A stretch of DNA of 64,000 bases from NCBI RefSeq assembly GCF_017696015.1, contig NZ_JAAORL010000002.1, positions 62,001-126,000 on the forward strand. The letters run 5' to 3'. The notes under the pieces were generated by a model. That model saw only the letters and a list, made by a program, of their open reading frames with translations, had not been told where the DNA came from and did no database searches. Made by a program: the position numbers and the translations under genes. This DNA is from Prochlorococcus marinus CUG1415. Lineage in GTDB: Bacteria; Cyanobacteriota; Cyanobacteriia; PCC-6307; Cyanobiaceae. Shown piece by piece: positions 54,850 through 64,000 of the stretch; the stretch's first letter is position 1; each line of letters begins with the position of its first letter.

Positions 54850-56379
54850 ATGGAAAGTGAAAAAAAGTTGAATGCAATAAAAAAACCAATAATGGTCTTG
54901 GGAACTTCTAGTGGTGCAGGCAAATCATTAACAGTTACAGCTATTTGCAGGATTCTTAAAAATTTAGGTGAAGAGCCAATACCTTTTAAAGGCCAAAATA
55001 TGAGTAACAATGCTTGGGTTGATCGGGAAGGGGGGGAGATGGCATATTCACAAGCACTTCAAGCTTTTGCTTGTGGTATTCATCCTTGTTCAGAGATGAA
55101 TCCTATTTTATTAAAACCACAAGGTAATTCAATAAGTGAGGTTATTCACCTTGGCAGAAATATAGGAACCACAACCGCAAAAAATTATTACAAAGATTGG
55201 TTTATTCCTGGATGGGAAATAATCAAAAAAAGTTTAAAATCTATTTATAAAAAAAATCCAAATTGTCGTTTAATTATCGAAGGAGCTGGCAGTCCAGTAG
55301 AAATGAATTTAATTCATAGAGACCTTACTAATTTAAGAATAGCTAAGTATTTAAGGGCAAATTGCATTTTAATTACTGATATTGAAAGAGGTGGCGTATT
55401 TGCACAAATAATCGGGACTCTTGAATTAATGAAACCTGAAGAAAGGAAACTTATTAAGGGAATTATTATAAATAGATTCAGAGGAGACCTTTCATTATTT
55501 GAAGAAGGTAAAAAATGGATAGAGAATAAAACTCAAATCCCTGTTATTGGAACTATTCCTTGGTTAAACGATTCATTTCCTCCAGAAGATTCTTTGGATT
55601 TATTAGAAAAAAATTCACGTTTCAATAATCCTGAGATCAAAGTTGGAATTATAAAATTGCCATCTATAAGTAACTTCTCAGATTTTGACCCATTAGAAAA
55701 TGAAGAATCAATATTAATTGAATGGCTTGGAAAATCGCAAAATTTGAGGAAATATGATTTTATTATTCTGCCTGGTAGTAAACAAACTATTAAAGATCAA
55801 ATATTTCTTGAAAAGACTGGTTTGTCTAAGGATATAAGGGAATATTCAAATAATATGGGAAATATTATTGGAATATGTGGCGGTTTACAAATGTTAGGGA
55901 CAACACTTGAAGATCCTTATTTTAAAGAGGGATCCAAAAGTTATTCTGAACAAAAAATCAAAGGGATTGGATTACTACCATTAAAAACGACTTTCTTTGA
56001 AAAAAAGTTAACCCGTCAAATCAAATCTGAATCTATATGGCCATGCCAATCAAACATTAATGGATTTGAAATTCATAATGGCCAAACTGTATTGGATAAC
56101 ATGCAAAGCTCATTAAAGATTAATCCCATTTTCAAAGATTTAGATCTAGGTTGGTACAAAGAAAATAATAAAGGTGGAACTATTGCAGGTACATACATTC
56201 ATGGGATCTTTGAAAATGATATTTGGAGAGACCAATATATTAACTTAATAAGGAAGAGTAAAAATTTACCAATGTTAAATAAAAAATCAATATCTTATAA
56301 AAAGAAGAGAGAATCCATTATTAATAATCTTGCGAATGAATTCGATAAACATTTAAATCTCACATCATTTTTAATTTGA
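54850..56379 (+). CDS. cobQ: Cobyric acid synthase
   Basis: A 509-residue enzyme of adenosylcobalamin synthesis that amidates four side chains with glutamine. The N-terminal P-loop domain (VLGTSSGAGKSLTVTA, FKGQNMSNNAWV) and the C-terminal glutaminase (GICGGLQMLGTTLEDP with Cys, GTYIHGIFEND with His) are both intact. Prochlorococcus makes pseudocobalamin, so retention is expected. The ferredoxin gene starts inside its stop. Confidence 0.96.
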   Translation: MESEKKLNAIKKPIMVLGTSSGAGKSLTVTAICRILKNLGEEPIPFKGQNMSNNAWVDREGGEMAYSQALQAFACGIHPCSEMNPILLKPQGNSISEVIHLGRNIGTTTAKNYYKDWFIPGWEIIKKSLKSIYKKNPNCRLIIEGAGSPVEMNLIHRDLTNLRIAKYLRANCILITDIERGGVFAQIIGTLELMKPEERKLIKGIIINRFRGDLSLFEEGKKWIENKTQIPVIGTIPWLNDSFPPEDSLDLLEKNSRFNNPEIKVGIIKLPSISNFSDFDPLENEESILIEWLGKSQNLRKYDFIILPGSKQTIKDQIFLEKTGLSKDIREYSNNMGNIIGICGGLQMLGTTLEDPYFKEGSKSYSEQKIKGIGLLPLKTTFFEKKLTRQIKSESIWPCQSNINGFEIHNGQTVLDNMQSSLKINPIFKDLDLGWYKENNKGGTIAGTYIHGIFENDIWRDQYINLIRKSKNLPMLNKKSISYKKKRESIINNLANEFDKHLNLTSFLI

Positions 56380-56627
56380 AAGAAACAAATATAAAAGTCA
56401 TATGGCCAAATAAGAATGAAACCTTTGTTTCAGAGGGAGATGATTGGTTATCTTCTGCTGAAAAAGCAGGTTTAGAAATTCCGACTGGTTGTCTGACAGG
56501 AAGTTGTGGAGCCTGTGAAATAGATGTAAATGGTGAAACAGTAAGGGCTTGTATCACTCAAATTAAAAATAATAAAAAATGTAAGTTACAGGTTTCTTTA
56601 ACTACAGACCCCTTTTGGGAAAACTAA
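56376..56627 (+). CDS. [2Fe-2S] plant-type ferredoxin
   Basis: Starts with TTG overlapping the cobQ stop (TTGA). It is 83 residues, somewhat shorter than photosynthetic PetF. The cluster-binding pattern C-x4-C-x2-C is in GCLTGSCGACEIDV and the fourth Cys is in VRACI. Coupling to cobQ suggests a specialised electron donor rather than the main photosynthetic ferredoxin (inference). Confidence 0.88.
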   Translation: MKETNIKVIWPNKNETFVSEGDDWLSSAEKAGLEIPTGCLTGSCGACEIDVNGETVRACITQIKNNKKCKLQVSLTTDPFWEN

Positions 56628-56633
56628 ATTTCA

Positions 56634-57200
56634 CTAAACATTACCTATTATTAGAAAAAGAAATAGATAATAAAAAAATGATCCTAAAAATGTGTAGATT
56701 AAAATCACCTTCTTCTTGATTTTTGAACAGGCAATAATATAACTTCCCAAAACATGAGGAAGGATTGGGAAAGATCTTATTATTAAAATATAGAAAGATC
56801 TAAAACTAACATTTGCAAAAATTTTATCCAAATTATTTTTTTCTTTTTTTCTCAAAAACAATATATTTCTAAAAAGTCTGGATTTAATTTTTCTCAAGAT
56901 AAGAACTTGAATTACACTTAAAATAGTTAAAGCAGGAGAAAAAAATAAAATATAATATAACCCAAAAATCTTTATTAATATAAAGTCAAAAATAATTGAG
57001 AAAGGAAGGCCTAAAAATATAGAAATCATATTTAAGGCTATCAAATATCTGTATTGAATATTACTAAGTAGGGATTCAATATCATAGTTATACTTAAATA
57101 TTAGAGCCAAAAAGTAAACCACTAAATAGGTAAAAAATATTTTAAAAATTACTGATTTAAAATTCAGGTCTTTTCTATTCATATAAGATGACCGTCCCAA
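56634..57200 (-). CDS. VTT/TMEM64-like membrane protein
   Basis: A 188-residue protein with about five membrane helices. The segments LGLPFSIIFDFILIKIFG and IIRSFPILPHVLGSYIIA resemble the DedA/TVP38 (VTT) family, where Arg and Pro in the second segment are conserved. These proteins are proposed scramblases or transporters. Met7 (57182) is a possible alternative start. It converges with the ferredoxin gene. Confidence 0.55.
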   Translation of the reverse strand: MGRSSYMNRKDLNFKSVIFKIFFTYLVVYFLALIFKYNYDIESLLSNIQYRYLIALNMISIFLGLPFSIIFDFILIKIFGLYYILFFSPALTILSVIQVLILRKIKSRLFRNILFLRKKEKNNLDKIFANVSFRSFYILIIRSFPILPHVLGSYIIACSKIKKKVILIYTFLGSFFYYLFLFLIIGNV

Positions 57201-57207
57201 ATGATTA

Positions 57208-57393
57208 TCAAAAAAATAGAGCGTGTGATATTAAATCACATCCAATAGGGGCAATTATATAACCATACAGGAAGTCTTTATAAGGAGGATTCATATTATC
57301 ATCAACCATATCCAAAACAACATTTTTGTTTTTTATAGTAAACTCTTTGAATAATATAGGAAAGTTAATACAAGGACTTAGTTTGCATAACAA
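57208..57393 (-). CDS. Possible small protein (61 aa)
   Basis: A frame reading MLCKLSPCINFPILFKEF to CDLISHALFF. Composition is coding-like in the middle (VVLDMVDDNMNPPYKDFLYG), but there is no recognisable family or clear ribosome site. It could be a real small gene between the VTT-like and rhomboid genes or a chance frame. Confidence 0.3.
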   Translation of the reverse strand: MLCKLSPCINFPILFKEFTIKNKNVVLDMVDDNMNPPYKDFLYGYIIAPIGCDLISHALFF

Positions 57394-57456
57394 AGCCTCT
57401 ATTACAAGAAAACTATATTGAATATATTATTTTGATCAAAGAATAATTAATCTTTT

Positions 57457-58062
57457 TTAGATTAAGAATAAAAAACATCCCGCAATAAATCCACTTATAT
57501 GACCCAATAAGCTTACTCCTGGGAATAAAGAGAAAATAAATCCTATAAGACATATGGTATTTGTCATTTTTTGAACTTCATAATTAGATTTTAAACCAAT
57601 TTTTTTACCTAAAAAATAGCTCTTTCCATAAAAAGAAGTTAATAATAAGAATCCAAAAAAAGCATAAATTATGCCACTAAATCCTAAAGCGGCATAATTC
57701 GGATAGGTATTAAAAAAATATGATAAGATCTTCTCGTAAAACCAAATAATAAAAAAATTTAAAAAAGAACAAATTAAAATAAATTTCAGATAAAACAAAC
57801 TGCTTTTAATTCCAAGTCTCATCAGAAAATATCTAGTGATAATTATTCCACCAAGATTACTTAATAAATGATTTAAATCTGCATGGACTAGGATTGATGT
57901 GAAAATCCTATAAGGTTGATCACTAATTAATCTTGGTACAAAGTATAAAAATTCTTTATCAAGAATTCCAATTAAATCTGTAAAAATAAAAAATGAGATT
58001 AAAATAGATGCGCATACAATGTATTGCCAATCATATTTAGATATTGAATTATTAAGAGACAT
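57457..58062 (-). CDS. Rhomboid-family intramembrane serine protease
   Basis: A 201-residue six-helix protein. The catalytic pair is present: Ser129 in GFSG and His188 in LLGHISGF, with the supporting HADLNHLLSNLGG motif (first His of the HxxxN type, residues 60-69). Rhomboids cleave transmembrane helices of membrane proteins. The substrate is unknown. It marks the left edge of the tRNA-adjacent variable region. Confidence 0.85.
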   Translation of the reverse strand: MSLNNSISKYDWQYIVCASILISFFIFTDLIGILDKEFLYFVPRLISDQPYRIFTSILVHADLNHLLSNLGGIIITRYFLMRLGIKSSLFYLKFILICSFLNFFIIWFYEKILSYFFNTYPNYAALGFSGIIYAFFGFLLLTSFYGKSYFLGKKIGLKSNYEVQKMTNTICLIGFIFSLFPGVSLLGHISGFIAGCFLFLI

Positions 58063-58182
58063 AAATAAAAATATCTTTATTCAAATTACCAGAACATTTT
58101 ATCTACGATAATAAATTTTTAATGCTCTTACAGTCGATTTTTCAGGGGGTGAATTTATTGATATGAATAATATGTAAGCAAA

Positions 58183-58320
58183 TTAATGATTTTCGTACAT
58201 TTTTCTATAATCATTATGCAATTTTTCAGTTGCTAATCTTCTTTTCTTCATCGCATCTCTAATCAAATCCATTTCATGGGATTTTTGATTGAGGATAGTG
58301 AAAGGAGTAATGAGTTTCAT
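58183..58320 (-). CDS. Very small basic protein (45 aa)
   Basis: Reads MKLITPFTILNQKSHEMDLI to DYRKMYENH; basic and helical. It lies about 50 bases downstream of another small minus-strand gene and probably shares its transcript. No family recognised. Confidence 0.5.
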   Translation of the reverse strand: MKLITPFTILNQKSHEMDLIRDAMKKRRLATEKLHNDYRKMYENH

Positions 58321-58368
58321 AAGAACTCCTGTATTTACACTAATATTATCCTACTTTTCACTTGAAAT

Positions 58369-58572
58369 TCATAGGGTATTTCTACCAGAGTATTCGTGCT
58401 TTATTTCTCTCACTACTATCTTTCCATATTCAGTTGGAGTAATAAAATTTTTAATCACTTCACCTAAAAAGTAATTTCCCTCACCCTCAGGAGAAAGTAC
58501 AATCTCTCCCTTCTTTATTTTTTTAGAGATCATCCAAAGGAATCCACCAACACTCATAAAAATAAAACCCAA
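58369..58572 (-). CDS. Small membrane-anchored protein (67 aa)
   Basis: A hydrophobic N-terminus (MGFIFMSVGGFLWMI) is followed by a basic turn (SKKIKKG) and a soluble domain (NYFLGEVIKNFITPTEYGK). It is probably a membrane-anchored cytoplasmic peptide. Function unknown. Confidence 0.45.
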   Translation of the reverse strand: MGFIFMSVGGFLWMISKKIKKGEIVLSPEGEGNYFLGEVIKNFITPTEYGKIVVREIKHEYSGRNTL

Positions 58573-58660
58573 CTATACAGAAATTTATATTTCTTAGAAC
58601 TCTTCTCTATCAATGCAATTTGAATTAGAACTCAAAAAATCAAGAGTGTAAATTATCCTA

Positions 58661-58680
58661 TTAAACCGTAGAGGGTGTTA
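58661..58680. repeat. Degenerate copy of the tRNA-Ser 3' end
   Basis: CCGTAGAGGGTGTT resembles the copy at 59507 (CGGAGAGGGTGTT) with one mismatch, and both resemble the 3' end of the tRNA-Ser gene read on the plus strand. Possible relic of an attachment site. Confidence 0.35.
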
Positions 58681-58821
58681 GTGGAGATGGATACATGAGA
58701 CACTCTCAGACACTTACTGAAACTGGTATTATCGAGAATAAGTAAAATTACACCAAAATTCCCTCCAACACTTCTTGTTATTTATTGACACGATATTTAA
58801 AATAAGAAAAAGAGTAGTGGT

Positions 58822-59231
58822 ATGACTAAGTGGGATGATAATTCTTGGCAGAAAGATTTCTTGAACATGAAATCTCATTCTCCTTCAGATGCAAAACTCT
58901 TGATGGGAGGTGTAAAAGGTTTGAAAGATGCTTGGCGATTAGGTGTTCTGCACGTTGAATACGAAAGGCTGAAGAGAAAACAGGAAGAACAGCAACAGCA
59001 ATTAAAGAAAAAATAAATTGGCAAAAAGAATTATTAGAAAGTGGAAGATTTAACGATAAATTTTCCAAGAATCTATTAGAGCATGGTGCAAAAAATTTTA
59101 TGCAAGGTATCTATTTTGGGTATATGTATTCCAGATAGAGAAAGATCAGAGGTTTAGATAAAGATGATCCAATAGAAAATACGGGACAAATGCAATCATC
59201 ATTCAATGATTTTGAGAAGAAAATCAAATAA
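58822..59231 (+). pseudogene. Decayed gene: frameshift plus amber stop
   Basis: The first frame runs 58822-59016 (64 residues, MTKWDDNSWQKDFLNMKSHS to a Gln/Lys-rich end) and stops in an A-rich tract. The -1 frame continues without a break from there (INWQKELLESGRFNDKFSKN to GYMYSR), meets TAG at 59136, and continues in the same frame (RKIRGLDKDDPIENTGQ to EKKIK) to TAA at 59229. Joined, the pieces make one plausible protein of about 135 residues. The best explanation is a gene lost by two mutations. The first 64 residues may still be made. The family is not recognised. Confidence 0.6.
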
Positions 59232-59399
59232 GAATATTTATAAATTACTTTTTATATTGTCTGACCATTTTTCCCAACAATAAGTTTTCCCATATCTATA
59301 TTTTACCTACTTTTTCTTTTTGCTAATAAGAAGTTGCGATAAGGGATCTTAAGCAAAAACTCCCGCCAACACATCCGCCAACGCAGGATTAAAACTCTA

Positions 59400-59563
59400 T
59401 GAACATCTCTTGGCACCTATGAACAGGTACATAACGCAAATTGATTGGTATCACTAATTGCTGAATATCCTGAACAAATATGAACAGGTATGAACACAAG
59501 AAAAAACGGAGAGGGTGTTCATAGAAACAGTTTCAAATGAACAGTCCTGAACAAGTATGAACA
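59400..59563 (+). repeat. Phased TGAACA decamer arrays
   Basis: TGAACA occurs at 59400, 59420, 59471, 59481, 59491, 59538, 59548 and 59558. The last six form two triplets with exact 10-bp spacing, and the first pair is 20 bp apart with a degenerate copy between. The consensus unit is TGAACARGTA. The inverted form TGTTCA is at 59516. Spacing of one helical turn indicates protein binding on one DNA face. Confidence 0.75.
59503..59517. other. Candidate attachment core: 15-bp copy of the tRNA-Ser 3' end
   Basis: AAAACGGAGAGGGTG is identical to 60585-60599, which spans the last bases of the tRNA-Ser gene and four bases beyond it. It sits between two TGAACA triplets. Integrases of the tyrosine family commonly use tRNA 3' ends as the core site, leaving such copies. 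Confidence 0.55.
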
Positions 59564-59587
59564 AGTGTTTAATAAAAAAATTTAAAG

Positions 59588-59609
59588 ATCACAAACATAT
59601 CACAAACAG
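59588..59609 (+). repeat. Tandem 11-bp repeat ATCACAAACAT/G
   Basis: Two adjacent copies of ATCACAAACA followed by T or G, just to the right of the TGAACA arrays. Near-helical spacing again suggests a binding site. Confidence 0.45.
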
Positions 59610-59720
59610 ACAAGACCCAAAACTGGACTAAACTCAATCAAGTTAATTTATTTTTTTGTTAAAAATATTTTCATATAATCATTTCTAGGGGTTTGACAAA
59701 ACCTAAAACTTTAAATATCT

Positions 59721-59730
59721 GGAGAGGGTG
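59721..59730. repeat. Short copy of the tRNA-Ser 3' end
   Basis: GGAGAGGGTG is identical to 60590-60599 at the tRNA end. At 10 bases it is short, but it is the third such copy within 2 kb of the tRNA gene. Confidence 0.35.
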
Positions 59731-59849
59731 ATAGTCGATTTGGAAGGACATGTCTGGGCATGGTACAAATCAAACAATTCCATTCGTTTTTCCATGGGAC
59801 ACTTTGATTTTTTTTACTAAGACTTTTATATCTCATATATTTCAAAAAA

Positions 59850-60434
59850 TCATACTGCAGCAATAAGAGAGATGGTAAAAATCACTAAAAACAATGCAAT
59901 TATTAATACACTTGCAATCCAATATCCAACGATATGATTTTTTTTAGTTGGATATCTTAAATAATATTCTTTCCCCTCAATAGAAATTATTGACGACCTA
60001 GTAAGAAATATAACTACAAAAACACCGCCTATATATGGCACAGAAACTAAAAATATCCATTTCCAAGACATGCCAACATCTCTAATTCTTCTAACAGTTA
60101 GTGGAAGAGCAACCCAAATACTTCCAAAAAACAACAACAAACCTATTAAAGAGATGATATACATAGGTATTGATATGGCAACTGAAAAACTAGAATTAAC
60201 CCCACTAGTAAGTGCAATAGCAGAAAGAAACAAGACATAAGATATTACAGTGACAATCGAATTTAAAATTACAAAATGCCAATATTCCTTTCTGGTTGTC
60301 TTTCCTTTAAAATCAAAAGGTCTTTTCCAAGCAGAGAAATAAGAAGTAAGCATAAAAAAAATTATTTCTGTAATTTTAGTCCTTGAAGATATAAAAGTCA
60401 CTGATAAAAAATCTCTAGGAATAATCTTATTCAA
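59850..60434 (-). CDS. DUF805 family membrane protein
   Basis: The DUF805 pattern is clear: YFSAWKRPFDFKGKTTRKEYW, then four helices and LPLTVRRIRDVGMSWKW before the last helices. The start in the family would be at about Met28 (60353); the longer frame adds a non-conserved leader. Family members are integral membrane proteins of unknown function, common in mobile and accessory regions. It lies between the tRNA-Ser gene and the attachment-like site, so it is probably cargo of the island. Confidence 0.82.
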   Translation of the reverse strand: MNKIIPRDFLSVTFISSRTKITEIIFFMLTSYFSAWKRPFDFKGKTTRKEYWHFVILNSIVTVISYVLFLSAIALTSGVNSSFSVAISIPMYIISLIGLLLFFGSIWVALPLTVRRIRDVGMSWKWIFLVSVPYIGGVFVVIFLTRSSIISIEGKEYYLRYPTKKNHIVGYWIASVLIIALFLVIFTISLIAAV

Positions 60435-60588
60435 TTAACTGGGATTTTTATCGTATAAACGTAATGCAGAGGAATTCTATTGCACTCAAAATTTCACCAA
60501 CTTGTGCCTATTAGTTGAAATGTCTTTAATATGACTTGGAAATCTCCCCTTCTCGCACTGCATAGCATCGCAATTAGTTTTAGCAAAA

Positions 60589-60673
60589 CGGAGAGGGTGG
60601 GATTCGAACCCACGAATAGTTGCCTATTAAACGATTTCGAATCGTTCGCTTTCGACCACTCAGCCACCTCTCC
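60589..60673 (-). tRNA. tRNA-Ser (anticodon CGA)
   Basis: An 85-base class II tRNA on the minus strand. The acceptor arms GGAGAGG and CCTCTCC pair over 7 bp. D-arm GGCTGAGTGGTCGAAAGC, anticodon stem AACGA/TCGTT with loop TTCGAAA (anticodon CGA, codon UCG), a variable arm AATAGGCAACTATT, and the T-arm GTGGGTTCGAATCCCAC are all present. CCA is not encoded. Its 3' end faces the island, as expected for an integration target. Confidence 0.95.
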
Positions 60674-60736
60674 TCCTTTTATTAAGTATGAACATAATCT
60701 AAGAGAAGTTAAGATATAACTTAATATCTTAAATTT

Positions 60737-61759
60737 TTAATCCCATCCTGCATCTTTCATCATTCTTATTGCAACAGAGTTATATTCACCAAGGTCTTCT
60801 ACAGTAACCATATCAGGAGTAAATTCTCCAAAGTCTTTAACAATGGGATTTTGATTAACCTCTTTCAAGGGATGTTCAAAAGTTGGAGCAGCTAAACCTT
60901 TACTTCCTTCAGGAGAGGCCAAGAATTCAAGCAAAGCAATAGCTTCATATTTATTTTTTGCATATTTTGCAACACCGCCAGCACTTATATTTACATGTGC
61001 AGGATTAGGAGTAAGGACTGTTGTTTTTTTTGCATATAAAGCATCTCTTCTTCCATTAACACCTGCTAACATTCTTGCAACATAATAATGATTAACAATT
61101 CCTACTCCACATTTTCTCTTGGAAACTGCTCTAATTATTGCAATATCTCCTGGGAAGAATGGTTGGGAAACGTTCGAAATCATTCCGCTTAACCAATCTT
61201 TAGTTTTTGATTCACCTTTGTTAATTATTTGATTAGCAACTAAAGATTGATTATATGGACTTTTTCTATTTCTCAAACATACTTTTCCTTTTAGAGAAGG
61301 ATCAGCTAAATCAGCGTAATCATTAATCTTGCTTACATCTACTACTTTTGGATTAGCAACCATAACTCTTACTCTTCTGGTTAATGCATACCATTCCTTT
61401 TTTGGATCTTTCAATCCAACAGGAACATCATTTTCTAAATTAGAAGATCCTATTGGTTGAAGTAATCCAGCCTTGGCTGCATTAGTAATTCTTGCGGCAT
61501 CTACTAGCAATATTAAATCTGCTTGAGAATTCTTACCTTCTCGTTTTAATCTTTCAATTAAAGATATACCTGCCGCTTCTATAAGCCTAACTTTAATTCC
61601 AGTTTCTTCTGCAAATTTTTTATAAACACTTCTATCTGTGTTGTAATGTCTACCCGAATAAACTTTGACTTCTTTTTCTGTTGAATTAACTGGAATATTT
61701 ATATTCATTAAAAATGTACATGTTAGTGCTGTGTAAAAAAATTTTCTGAGTTTTTGCAC
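60737..61759 (-). CDS. futA: Periplasmic Fe(III)-binding protein, FutA/IdiA type
   Basis: A signal peptide (residues about 1-26) leads into a class-II binding-protein fold: VKVYSGRHYNTDRSVYKKF, ADLILLVDAARITNAAKAGLLQP, RVRVMVANPKVVDV, GKVCLRNRKSPYNQSLVA and the paired tyrosines in GIVNHYYVARM, which with the early Tyr ligate iron. Length 340 is normal. It feeds the Fut ABC transporter encoded elsewhere, and IdiA-like forms also protect photosystem II. The PiuC-type gene is divergent, suggesting joint iron control. Confidence 0.93.
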   Translation of the reverse strand: MQKLRKFFYTALTCTFLMNINIPVNSTEKEVKVYSGRHYNTDRSVYKKFAEETGIKVRLIEAAGISLIERLKREGKNSQADLILLVDAARITNAAKAGLLQPIGSSNLENDVPVGLKDPKKEWYALTRRVRVMVANPKVVDVSKINDYADLADPSLKGKVCLRNRKSPYNQSLVANQIINKGESKTKDWLSGMISNVSQPFFPGDIAIIRAVSKRKCGVGIVNHYYVARMLAGVNGRRDALYAKKTTVLTPNPAHVNISAGGVAKYAKNKYEAIALLEFLASPEGSKGLAAPTFEHPLKEVNQNPIVKDFGEFTPDMVTVEDLGEYNSVAIRMMKDAGWD

Positions 61760-61861
61760 TTTTTCAAATTAGTATCTATGGTTACTTTATCTCTAACTAC
61801 CCAACAGGGGCTCTAAAAGACATTTTCTATACTTAACTTTGTATCATTTTTTATATAAGCA

Positions 61862-62527
61862 ATGAATTATTTAACTCATCAATTACTAAATCCTAAAGAA
61901 ATAAATCTTTTAAAGAAGAATTTATTTTTAAAAGATTTACCATGGGAAGATGGCAAAAAAACTGCTGGTAATCACGCCGCAAAAGTTAAAGATAATCTTC
62001 AACTCGATAGAAGTTCTAATATTTCAAAAAAATATACTGAATTAATTGAAAAAAAAATACTTAATGATGTTTTAATAAAGAGTTTTACCGTACCTAAAAG
62101 AATTCACGGAACAATGTTCACTAAATCATTACAAGGAATGAAATATGGCAGACATATAGATAATGCTTTTATGTCTACTGGCAGGGCTGATTTATCATTC
62201 ACTATATTTCTCAATGAGAAAGATAAATATGCAGGTGGTGAATTATTAATTGAAGGCCTTAATTCAGAAAATAAATTCAAACTTGATTCAGGAGGTATCG
62301 TTATATATCCCAGTACTTATTTACACTCAGTACAAGAAGTAATTAGTGGTGAAAGAATAGTTGTTATTGGATGGATAGAAAGTTATGTAAAAAGTATCGA
62401 GGAAAGAGAATATTTATTTGACCTAGATGCTGGAGCAAGAACTTTACTTGCTAGGCATGGCAGATCTGATGAACTAGACCTTATCTTTAAATCCTATTCA
62501 AACTTGCTTCGTACATTAGGAGATTGA
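61862..62527 (+). CDS. piuC: PiuC-type Fe(II)/2-oxoglutarate dioxygenase (PKHD-type hydroxylase)
   Basis: A 221-residue enzyme with the iron ligands His98 and Asp100 in GRHIDNAF and His155 in YLHSVQEV, and the 2-oxoglutarate-binding Arg165 in SGERIVVIGWIES. RADLSFTIFLNEKDKYAGGEL is typical of the PiuC family, which is found with iron-uptake genes. The substrate is not known; proposed roles involve siderophore or iron uptake. No convincing Fur box is visible in the 100-bp divergent promoter region. Confidence 0.9.
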   Translation: MNYLTHQLLNPKEINLLKKNLFLKDLPWEDGKKTAGNHAAKVKDNLQLDRSSNISKKYTELIEKKILNDVLIKSFTVPKRIHGTMFTKSLQGMKYGRHIDNAFMSTGRADLSFTIFLNEKDKYAGGELLIEGLNSENKFKLDSGGIVIYPSTYLHSVQEVISGERIVVIGWIESYVKSIEEREYLFDLDAGARTLLARHGRSDELDLIFKSYSNLLRTLGD

Positions 62528-62597
62528 TAAGAAACATTTTATACATTAAATAGAAAATAAAAATTAAATTGATTAAGATTAAAAAAAAAGTTATCTA

Positions 62598-62837
62598 ATG
62601 CCTAAAAAAAGTTCTATATCAATTTTCTTAGCTGCAACAAGTGCACTAACTATTGCAACAACTGAAACAAATACTATAAATGCAGGGGAAAATGATCTAG
62701 GAGGCTTAAAGGAATGGAATACTGATATGCATGTAGATGCTGATTTTGTACTAGATGCAGAAGCTCAAAGAATTGCTGATGAAGCAGCAAAATCTAGTAT
62801 GTGTATTCCTATTGGGGAAGGAGAGAATTGTTGGTAA
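62598..62837 (+). CDS. Small secreted acidic protein (79 aa)
   Basis: An N-terminal signal-like segment (KKSSISIFLAATSALTIATT, cleavage near NAG-EN) is followed by a mature acidic peptide of about 50 residues (DLGGLKEWNTDMHVDADFVL) ending in two cysteines (SMCIPIGEGENCW), which may form a disulfide. It is followed by a strong bidirectional terminator. Function unknown; context suggests iron stress. Confidence 0.6.
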   Translation: MPKKSSISIFLAATSALTIATTETNTINAGENDLGGLKEWNTDMHVDADFVLDAEAQRIADEAAKSSMCIPIGEGENCW

Positions 62838-62855
62838 ACAAAAAATTTAATAAAA

Positions 62856-62883
62856 AAAAAACCGCTAAATAAGCGGTTTTTTT
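62856..62883. terminator. Bidirectional rho-independent terminator
   Basis: AAAACCGCT and AGCGGTTTT pair around a short loop, with A and T runs on the two sides. It serves both the small secreted protein gene and the converging porin gene. Confidence 0.88.
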
Positions 62884-62907
62884 AGTAAAACATCTGAAAG
62901 ATATTTT

Positions 62908-64000
62908 TTAGAACTTAAAGGTTGTTTCAAGAACAGCACCACTTATATCACGGCCAGCTGTTCCGTTTCTATCTGTACCACCAAATATTGCTGGTGTAAC
63001 AGAAACAGAATCGTTAACCTTGTATGAATAATAAGCTTCCCAAGCAAATGGCTCTACATTTTCATTTTCAACAGTTTGAGGTTGACCAAAAGCAACACCA
63101 ATTCTATCGTCAGCATTAATCATATCTTTCCAGGTAAGACCTGCAAACCATGCATCTGTAGAGTCTGCTCCTGCTGGAGCATTATCAATCTTAGAAGTGT
63201 CATAACCCAATGTAATTTCAGGTGTAGCTGTACCACTTTCCTCAGGTCTCCACCAAGCCCTTAGACCAACGTTTGTACTGTTTAGGTTAGTACCGTTGCC
63301 AGCAGGTGTAGATCCAGCATGTCCTCTAGATGTAATACCATTAGCTGTTGAGAAATAATCATCATACCAACCATTGTATTTCATGTTAACGATTGCTGAA
63401 ACAGCATATTGAGGTTGTGTAAAACCAACTTGAGTTGCCCAGCTAGTTCTTGATTCATTAGTTAATAAACCCCTAGTACTTTCGTTTTGCTTGGAAACAA
63501 TGTTTGAGCTAACTGCAAATCCATTATCTGCGTTATATGCCCAACCTGCACCACTATCAGTACTAGCTCCATATGCAGCAGCGTTACCACCAAGGGTAAA
63601 TTGCTTTGTTACGGGCTTATAAATTGATGGAGTTGTTCCATGCATGTAGTAGTTTTCAATTTTTGGACCTACCCAAACAGTATTATTATCTCCAACGGGG
63701 AATGAGTACCAAATCTTGTCAACTTCTAAGGCGTCGTTGTTGCCATTAGCTGATGAAAGGTAAGTACCATAAGTCTTACTATCCATGAATTGAGAAGCAT
63801 TACCTGTCTTAAGACGGACGTATAAGTTATCGTCACCAGTAAAACTTGTATTTAAGTTAACTTGATAAGTGTAAGCAGCTTGTAAACTTTCAGATAATCC
63901 ACCTTCAGCTTGCTCAACTGCACCTATTTGGAAAACAGCCTTACCATCCATTGTGGTTGTATCGGAGAAGCCACCTGCTTCATATTCATTTTGTCTAACC
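62908..64000 (-). CDS. Cyanobacterial outer membrane porin (5' end beyond the window)
   Basis: The frame stays open past the first ATG at 63951 to the window edge (VRQNEYEAGGFSDTTTMDGK), so the N-terminus, probably with a signal peptide and SLH domain, is missing. The visible part is a beta-barrel of alternating polar and hydrophobic strands, rich in Gly, Asn and aromatic residues, ending ETTFKF with a terminal Phe typical of Bam substrates. The pattern fits the cyanobacterial Som/iron-uptake porin family. Its place next to futA and piuC fits a role in iron passage. Confidence 0.88.
   Translation of the reverse strand, partial: VRQNEYEAGGFSDTTTMDGKAVFQIGAVEQAEGGLSESLQAAYTYQVNLNTSFTGDDNLYVRLKTGNASQFMDSKTYGTYLSSANGNNDALEVDKIWYSFPVGDNNTVWVGPKIENYYMHGTTPSIYKPVTKQFTLGGNAAAYGASTDSGAGWAYNADNGFAVSSNIVSKQNESTRGLLTNESRTSWATQVGFTQPQYAVSAIVNMKYNGWYDDYFSTANGITSRGHAGSTPAGNGTNLNSTNVGLRAWWRPEESGTATPEITLGYDTSKIDNAPAGADSTDAWFAGLTWKDMINADDRIGVAFGQPQTVENENVEPFAWEAYYSYKVNDSVSVTPAIFGGTDRNGTAGRDISGAVLETTFKF

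Follow-up and report, generated by a model that had tools for sequence, protein, structure and literature searches.

The window analyzed here, 64,000 nucleotides of Prochlorococcus marinus CUG1415 DNA, contains a tRNA-Ser(CGA) gene on the minus strand (60589 to 60673), the integration target, whose 3′ end lies towards an array of short repeats. The hexamer TGAACA occurs there eight times on the plus strand (at 59400, 59420, 59471, 59481, 59491, 59538, 59548, and 59558) and once inverted, at 59516. A position search recovered exactly what an earlier note had described, namely, two exact triplets in 10-bp phase with two extra copies, 20 bp apart, on the left. Across the whole window the hexamer is not enriched (33 observed versus 42.8 expected). 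The phased triplet, at up to two mismatches, was found at these two places alone in the window and never in 100 shuffles, and the triplet pattern minus its first T, again at up to two mismatches, has only these two places in the 1.73-Mb genome.

The note had also placed an exact 15-bp copy of the tRNA end between the triplets, and this too was borne out. The sequence AAAACGGAGAGGGTG at 59503 to 59517 duplicates 60585 to 60599 exactly and consists of the final 11 bases of tRNA-Ser(CGA) and 4 flanking bases. Genome wide, GGAGAGGGTG is present six times and the backwards-read pattern three times; three of the six sit within 1.1 kb at this locus, one of them being the tRNA itself. When mismatches were allowed, further tRNA-end cores appeared at 58667 (CGTAGAGGGTG) and 59720 (TGGAGAGGGTG), each with one mismatch, so that these, the core at 59507, and the tRNA end at 60589 all run in one direction. 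A second repeat type lies near the array, as ATCACAAACA twice at 59588 to 59608 and CCGCCAAC twice at 59363 to 59382. An Rfam scan of 56000 to 64000 returned nothing above the cutoff except the tRNA, and 59340 to 59740 had no match among phage records.

The cores divide the stretch from 58667 to 60673 into three tandem elements on tRNA-Ser(CGA), E1 (840 bp), E2 (213 bp), and E3 (869 bp), each starting with one such tRNA-end copy. The core at 59507, within the 15-bp junction copy, is the seam between E1 and E2; the left TGAACA triplet is the right end of E1, and the right triplet (59538 to 59563) is the left end of E2. The note had read both triplets as parts of one candidate attachment site of a tRNA-inserted element. 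A tyrosine recombinase attachment structure is indeed present at tRNA-Ser, but it is the seam of two tandem elements and not a single site. Features are on the plus strand unless stated otherwise.

E1 opens with its one-mismatch core (58667 to 58677), followed by a phased triplet, AGACAC/AGACAC/TGAAAC in 10-bp phase (58698 to 58723), and by the distal arm repeats CACCAAAA and CTCCAACAC (58751 to 58771). Its cargo includes a 64-aa open reading frame (ORF) (58822 to 59016) with no Pfam match; a relative of this ORF stands left of the tRNA in 14 of 67 other oriented loci (74 to 98% identity; window excluded). A second cargo frame (59013 to 59234), which has an in-frame stop, is likely a pseudogene. 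At the position of that stop, relatives read through. The right end of E1 consists of the two distal arm repeats CCGCCAAC, 12 bp apart (59363 to 59382), and the near-core TGAACA cluster (59400 to 59496), whose final copy starts 16 bp from the core. In locus L047, TGAAAC stands left of the tRNA at the same 16-bp distance, and the arms of L135 (CCCGCCAACA) are related to the CCGCCAAC repeats. In L158 an E1-type left end, there with an exact core, precedes an E1-type ORF at an otherwise empty-type flank.

E2 (59507 to 59719) has no ORF of at least 60 aa, and its two arms are fused at one pair of ATCACAAACA repeats in 11-bp phase (59588 to 59608), which are likely integrase arm sites. The right (P) arm of E2 (59609 to 59719) has a counterpart in L042, where a similar sequence is located left of the tRNA. 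E3 begins with the one-mismatch core at 59720 to 59730 and encodes a 194-aa DUF805 (PF05656) protein on the minus strand (59850 to 60434); no arms were recognizable in E3. The largest ORFs in E1 to E3 are 80 to 194 aa long, and of the two scanned against Pfam the DUF805 protein alone matched. The stretch left of E1 (58544 to 58666), which has CCACCAACAC and ends in TATCCTATTAAAC, has the appearance of a right end (P arm) belonging to yet another, older outer element; in L042, L048, L052, and L171, comparable endings flank other cores or the tRNA on the left side.

We compared the region with 266 genomes of the genus by blastn. Because the search was run at E values up to 10, it gave some match in all 266, mostly by chance; homology was accepted only below an E value of about 1e-7, and weaker matches served the choice of loci for reading. 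The stretch right of the core was present at 85 to 92% identity in genomes G205, G207, G222, G232, and G299, the last without a recognizable core. In 20 fetched loci that we read, there were many tRNA-end copies followed by one order of parts spelled in different letters: three repeats in 10-bp phase begin about 20 bp from the core, and two repeats in 11- or 12-bp phase come after an A+T-rich spacer. Across 79 tRNA-Ser loci we counted 71 oriented cores (at most one mismatch, within 17.5 kb of the tRNA), compared with 1 on the opposite strand and 3 of the backwards-read pattern, and a few of the 71 are probably due to chance. Locus L043, where the tRNA was not recognized, was left out of this core and layout analysis.

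The layout was also seen statistically. Among 30 nonredundant cores, self-match at a lag of 10 in positions +28 to +58 was 0.42 versus 0.28 in controls (maximum among resamples, 0.343), and self-match at a lag of 11 or 12 in positions +75 to +105 was 0.468 versus 0.338 (maximum, 0.402), with 3,000 control stretches and 20,000 resamples. Where a stretch borders the tRNA or the next core on the left, it tends to contain the matching distal repeats. In 48 nonredundant elements, the two ends of the same element were more alike in their distal repeats (mean, 12.4) than permuted ends (mean, 9.2; maximum of 20,000 permutations, 11.97). For a single element such matching is weak: the element's own partner ranked fourth or better in 20 of the 48, and one of these 20 is an A+T-rich chance match. 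E1, whose ends are unlike in letters (CTCCAACAC versus CCGCCAAC), had its partner at rank 4 of 48. Short gene-free elements score like random ones (E2, rank 21), we think because their fused repeats lie outside the compared stretch.

The note had named arrays at unrelated places as evidence against its reading. What we found was a pattern tied to one tRNA gene: TCACAAACANATCACAAACA, the pattern of the E2 distal pair, occurs at five places in 4 of the 266 genomes, every one beside tRNA-Ser(CGA). The TGAACA triplets of G205, G207, and G232 likewise adjoin a tRNA-end copy. In a sample of 149 genomes, 90 of them from the genus and the array-bearing G205, G207, G232, and G160 lying outside it, the exact triplet had one match besides the window genome. 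That match is an intergenic array in G097, from another cyanobacterial family. In L003 (1501 to 1576), from a genome of another cyanobacterial family, TGTTCA, the reverse complement of TGAACA, is repeated eight times at an exact 10-bp spacing. L050 has six tandem core copies at one tRNA-Ser(CGA), with at least three arm types. Scans of IMG/VR with the two patterns yielded four stretches for one and three for the other; all of them lacked both a tRNA and a core and were set aside as chance matches or coding repeats.

Occupied and empty tRNA-Ser sites, whose comparison the note had suggested, both exist. By pattern, 70 of the 72 genus genomes that are at least 93% complete have tRNA-Ser(CGA), and 68 loci could be oriented (L043 and L161, with unrecognized tRNAs, were omitted). 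A core is held in 29 of the 68 by a stricter pattern within the left anchor and in 36 when one mismatch is allowed. Twelve sites are empty, with the rhomboid gene 489 to 527 bp from the tRNA and no core by either rule. We then took 46 core-bearing loci (these 36 main loci and 10 picked from earlier matches). In 10 of them, an empty-site match to the outer flank extends to 8 bp or less from a core; the other 36 gave no empty-site match ending at a core. The near-isogenic cases part at the core: L157, L144, and L143 are 99.8, 99.3, and 98.8% identical to the empty site L166 over 419 aligned bp and diverge from it after the core. L152 was dropped from this comparison; its flank match stops at a core, but in the empty site it stops 61 bp before the tRNA. 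The outer flank of the window itself matches an empty site at 75% over 147 bp only, ending 225 bp left of the core at 58667.

Some units in these arrays are, like E2, gene-free. Elements shorter than 350 bp make up 12 of 53 in the main loci and 15 of 71 in all loci, and those without an ORF of at least 60 aa make up 13 of 53 and 18 of 71. In several of them the left and right arms are joined at the distal repeats, present in two to four copies, and such fused arms with varying copy number are expected if recombination between matching repeats removed the interior. L145 and L047 each hold a gene-free unit of about 215 bp alone between the tRNA and an empty-type flank, the L047 contig ending soon beyond. 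Gene-free units could be scars, or they could be mobile in trans. We scanned 10 proteins from six loci, picked by size, against Pfam, and PADLOC was run on seven of these. Among the larger units, integrase-less ones at tRNA-Ser(CGA) carry type I restriction-modification systems (L054 and L056, which were chosen separately) or a type III system (L058), and TPR proteins and a trypsin-like protein are further cargo of larger units.

The note had supposed that the integrase is elsewhere or lost, which agrees with what we found. None is encoded in cis, a profile search (A1) of the window genome detected no tycheposon-type integrase, and the only two PF00589 proteins of this genome are located elsewhere than the array. 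In the genus, the same profile identified tycheposon-type integrases in 23 of 266 genomes and in 10 of 87 near-complete ones, fragments counted. Of the 36 main core-bearing loci, L102 alone has such an integrase in the fetched stretch, two of these stretches (L147 and L168) being shorter than 6 kb. Among array ORFs of at least 90 aa, integrase matches are confined to L097, L102, and L104. Pfam assigns Arm-DNA-bind_3 to the L102 integrase and, above the cutoff, the catalytic domain alone to the 444-aa integrase of L097. Relatives of the integrase alignment in IMG/VR amounted to five distant loci.

Integrase-bearing elements with a tRNA in the stretch have array-type ends. They sit at tRNA-Ser(CGA) (L097, L102, and L104), at tRNA-Ser(TGA) (L184, with an integrase of about 430 aa), and at tRNA-Ser(GCT) and tRNA-Asn. 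Arrays never linked to integrases would, according to the note, have spoken against its reading; elements of like layout do carry them at tRNA-Ser genes. A distal core was present in all 15 integrase loci compared (out of 23 examined), and in 10 of the 15 the integrase starts 457 to 571 bp from it. By eye, L092, L094, L097, L102, and L104 also encode a small resolvase-like serine recombinase of about 190 to 230 aa. A 359-aa integrase lies beside tRNA-Thr/tRNA-Tyr in L009 (G000:C1:371030-374494), flanked by a large reading frame, and a 359-aa open frame like it is found in many genus genomes among the matches listed.

These integrase-bearing elements allowed the two repeat types to be compared with the protein in a Mantel test. 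Near-duplicates inflated all four correlations in the set of 15 elements, and we therefore removed L104 and L190 and kept 13; L189, whose end is as in L188, was in neither set, and the core of L094 was assigned by a separate rule. Similarity in the first ~110 residues of the integrase tracked similarity in the distal repeats (r = 0.73; 0 of 10,000 permutations), and the rest of the protein did so less (r = 0.39; 32 of 10,000); the partial correlations were 0.69 and −0.21, respectively. For the near-core repeats the correlations were weak (0.30 for the N-terminal part and 0.21 for the rest; 105 and 420 of 10,000). The set of 13 is small, and shared descent adds to every correlation. Because N-terminal similarity tracks the distal repeats and the near-core repeats only weakly, the distal repeats (ATCACAAACA in E2, outside the interval the note had marked) are the probable integrase arm sites. 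The TGAACA triplets probably bind another protein, for example, an excision factor, by analogy with Xis in lambda (PMC4880445) and RdfS (PMC11963761). We regard these two roles as moderately supported.

The left end of E2 aligns with that of L184, and among the 13 integrase elements L184 is the best match to E2 in both repeat regions (near-core, 0.63; distal, 0.55, the 99.9% point of the random background). This link of E2 to the L184 integrase is suggestive; an integrase having exactly the E2 arms was not found in the search.

Judging from these comparisons, we consider it highly probable (about 0.88) that the interval from 59398 to 59570 is the junction of two elements that entered by site-specific integration and belong to a tandem array on tRNA-Ser(CGA). 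The comparison of loci indicates that such elements insert at the 3′ end of the tRNA gene, with a copy of about 11 bp of it left at the far end, and bear an ordered recombination site at their ends, and insertion with stacking is well supported as the mechanism. Many related genomes appear to carry similar stacks, made of pieces without an enzyme for their own movement. A tyrosine recombinase would bind the distal repeats through its N-terminal domain and the core through its catalytic part, and the phased TGAACA repeats would be the target of an accessory protein that binds cooperatively, most likely a recombination directionality factor. Every further insertion would use the restored tRNA end and shift older elements outward, and E3 would therefore be the youngest element and E1 an older one. 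The interior of E2 would have been lost when its two ends recombined at their matching arm repeats. Since the array holds no integrase, the enzyme would act, or once have acted, from elsewhere.

Whether such elements still move is a separate matter. We lean slightly towards the view that E1 to E3 are only fossils, dying tycheposon remnants that nothing moves now, with the gene-free units as scars like solo LTRs. The degenerate cores at 58667 and 59720, the stop within the E1 cargo frame, the lack of a tycheposon-type integrase in the window genome, and the joining of both arms at repeats of varying number in gene-free units all fit this view, but the core, triplet, and distal repeats of E2 are well matched to other genomes. 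The lone units of about 215 bp in L145 and L047 are compatible with fossils and with the tentative alternative that the cassettes are still mobilized in trans by incoming tycheposon integrases, as is thought for MITEs and CALINs. For mobilization in trans speaks the retention of cargo, such as the restriction-modification systems of L054, L056, and L058, although 35 of the 36 core-bearing main loci show no tycheposon-type integrase in the fetched stretch. In addition, an ICE integrates with no more than a 283-bp attP and the corresponding integrase (PMC11963761); that no integrase with exact E2 arms was found speaks against it.

The note had regarded the TGAACA triplets themselves as integrase arm sites, and they do stand in direct orientation to either side of the core; the arm sites P′1 to P′3 of lambda are closely spaced as well. 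This now seems improbable, given the stronger tracking of the integrase N terminus by the distal (0.73) than by the near-core (0.30) repeats; moreover, the right end of E1 and E2 have TGAACA in common but differ in their distal repeats. A conserved 389-aa tyrosine recombinase near hemH and pyrH (C1:497810) is encoded in the window genome, and a 389-aa open frame occurs in many genus genomes among the matches listed. We think it very unlikely to act on these sites, as one enzyme would leave the many arm types unexplained, and it could instead serve chromosome dimer resolution, the function of enzymes like it. Phased hexamers are also typical of operators, yet a regulatory array for a neighboring gene, with no relation to recombination, is scarcely credible; it was already disfavored by the comparison of occupied sites with the 12 empty sites, which have no core, and the repeats are tied to tRNA-end copies and element ends.

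Returning to the tandem array of integrated elements, we offer a broader and rather speculative reading, in which tRNA-Ser(CGA) would be an integron-like stockpile of integrase-less cassettes and ~210- to 300-bp "att-only" units, each with a two-code address, gathered and moved in trans by a code-matched tycheposon integrase. The two independent codes would be the distal repeats, for the integrase N terminus, and the phased near-core repeats, for an excision factor. Islands adjacent to tRNA genes differ greatly among Prochlorococcus genomes, and a readable end layout would allow these to be cut into single insertion events and put in order. It would also allow prediction of which integrase moves which cassette, integrase-less and gene-free ones included, and the covariation of integrase N terminus and arm repeat makes such predictions testable at the bench.

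Prochlorococcus tycheposons are reportedly tRNA-anchored elements with a tyrosine recombinase and cargo, features with which the integrase-bearing relatives described here fit. Like tycheposons, the elements in the window and its relatives have inserted at the 3′ end of a tRNA gene, and this end is repeated. The window elements differ in being 213 to 869 bp long and stacked, with neither a tyrosine recombinase of their own nor any other hallmark gene recognized in E1 to E3. The size of tycheposons is given as 4 to 200 kb in PMC10872708. As in lambda- or P4-type att sites, the core is identical to the target, the cores at 58667 and 59720 each carrying one mismatch, and arm repeats stand on both arms in the class as a whole, E2 having one fused pair. 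A literature search by title and start of abstract returned no description of these end repeats, which does not establish their absence from print.

The attP of ICEMlSymR7A, in the accessible portion of PMC11963761, is 283 bp long and has five arm-type motifs, and its RDF binds within attP. Unlike the window units, it is intact and functional, and its RDF has no consensus motif as far as that portion goes. MITEs and CALINs (PMC11389934) work alike in being element ends without an enzyme; their enzymes and sites differ from those of the array, for which action in trans is a candidate. A look for integron attC-type folding in the array gave a weak hairpin (z = −1.31). The Prochlorococcus MIT9313 tRNA-Met island, a putative P-SS2 site, has five 36-bp partial tRNA copies at a hypervariable locus (PMC2784084, in the part available). 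The copies there are longer, the tRNA is another one, there is a link to insertion sequences, and that part describes no arm layout, but repeated partial tRNA copies at a hypervariable tRNA locus are shared with the array. The additive flexible genomic islands of Methylophilaceae contain several 20-bp copies of a tRNA-Lys end and variable cargo of 330 bp to 42 kb; unlike in the array, no arm-site layout is described for them in the accessible text of PMC10872708. What they and the array have in common is repeated tRNA-end copies that separate variable cargo.
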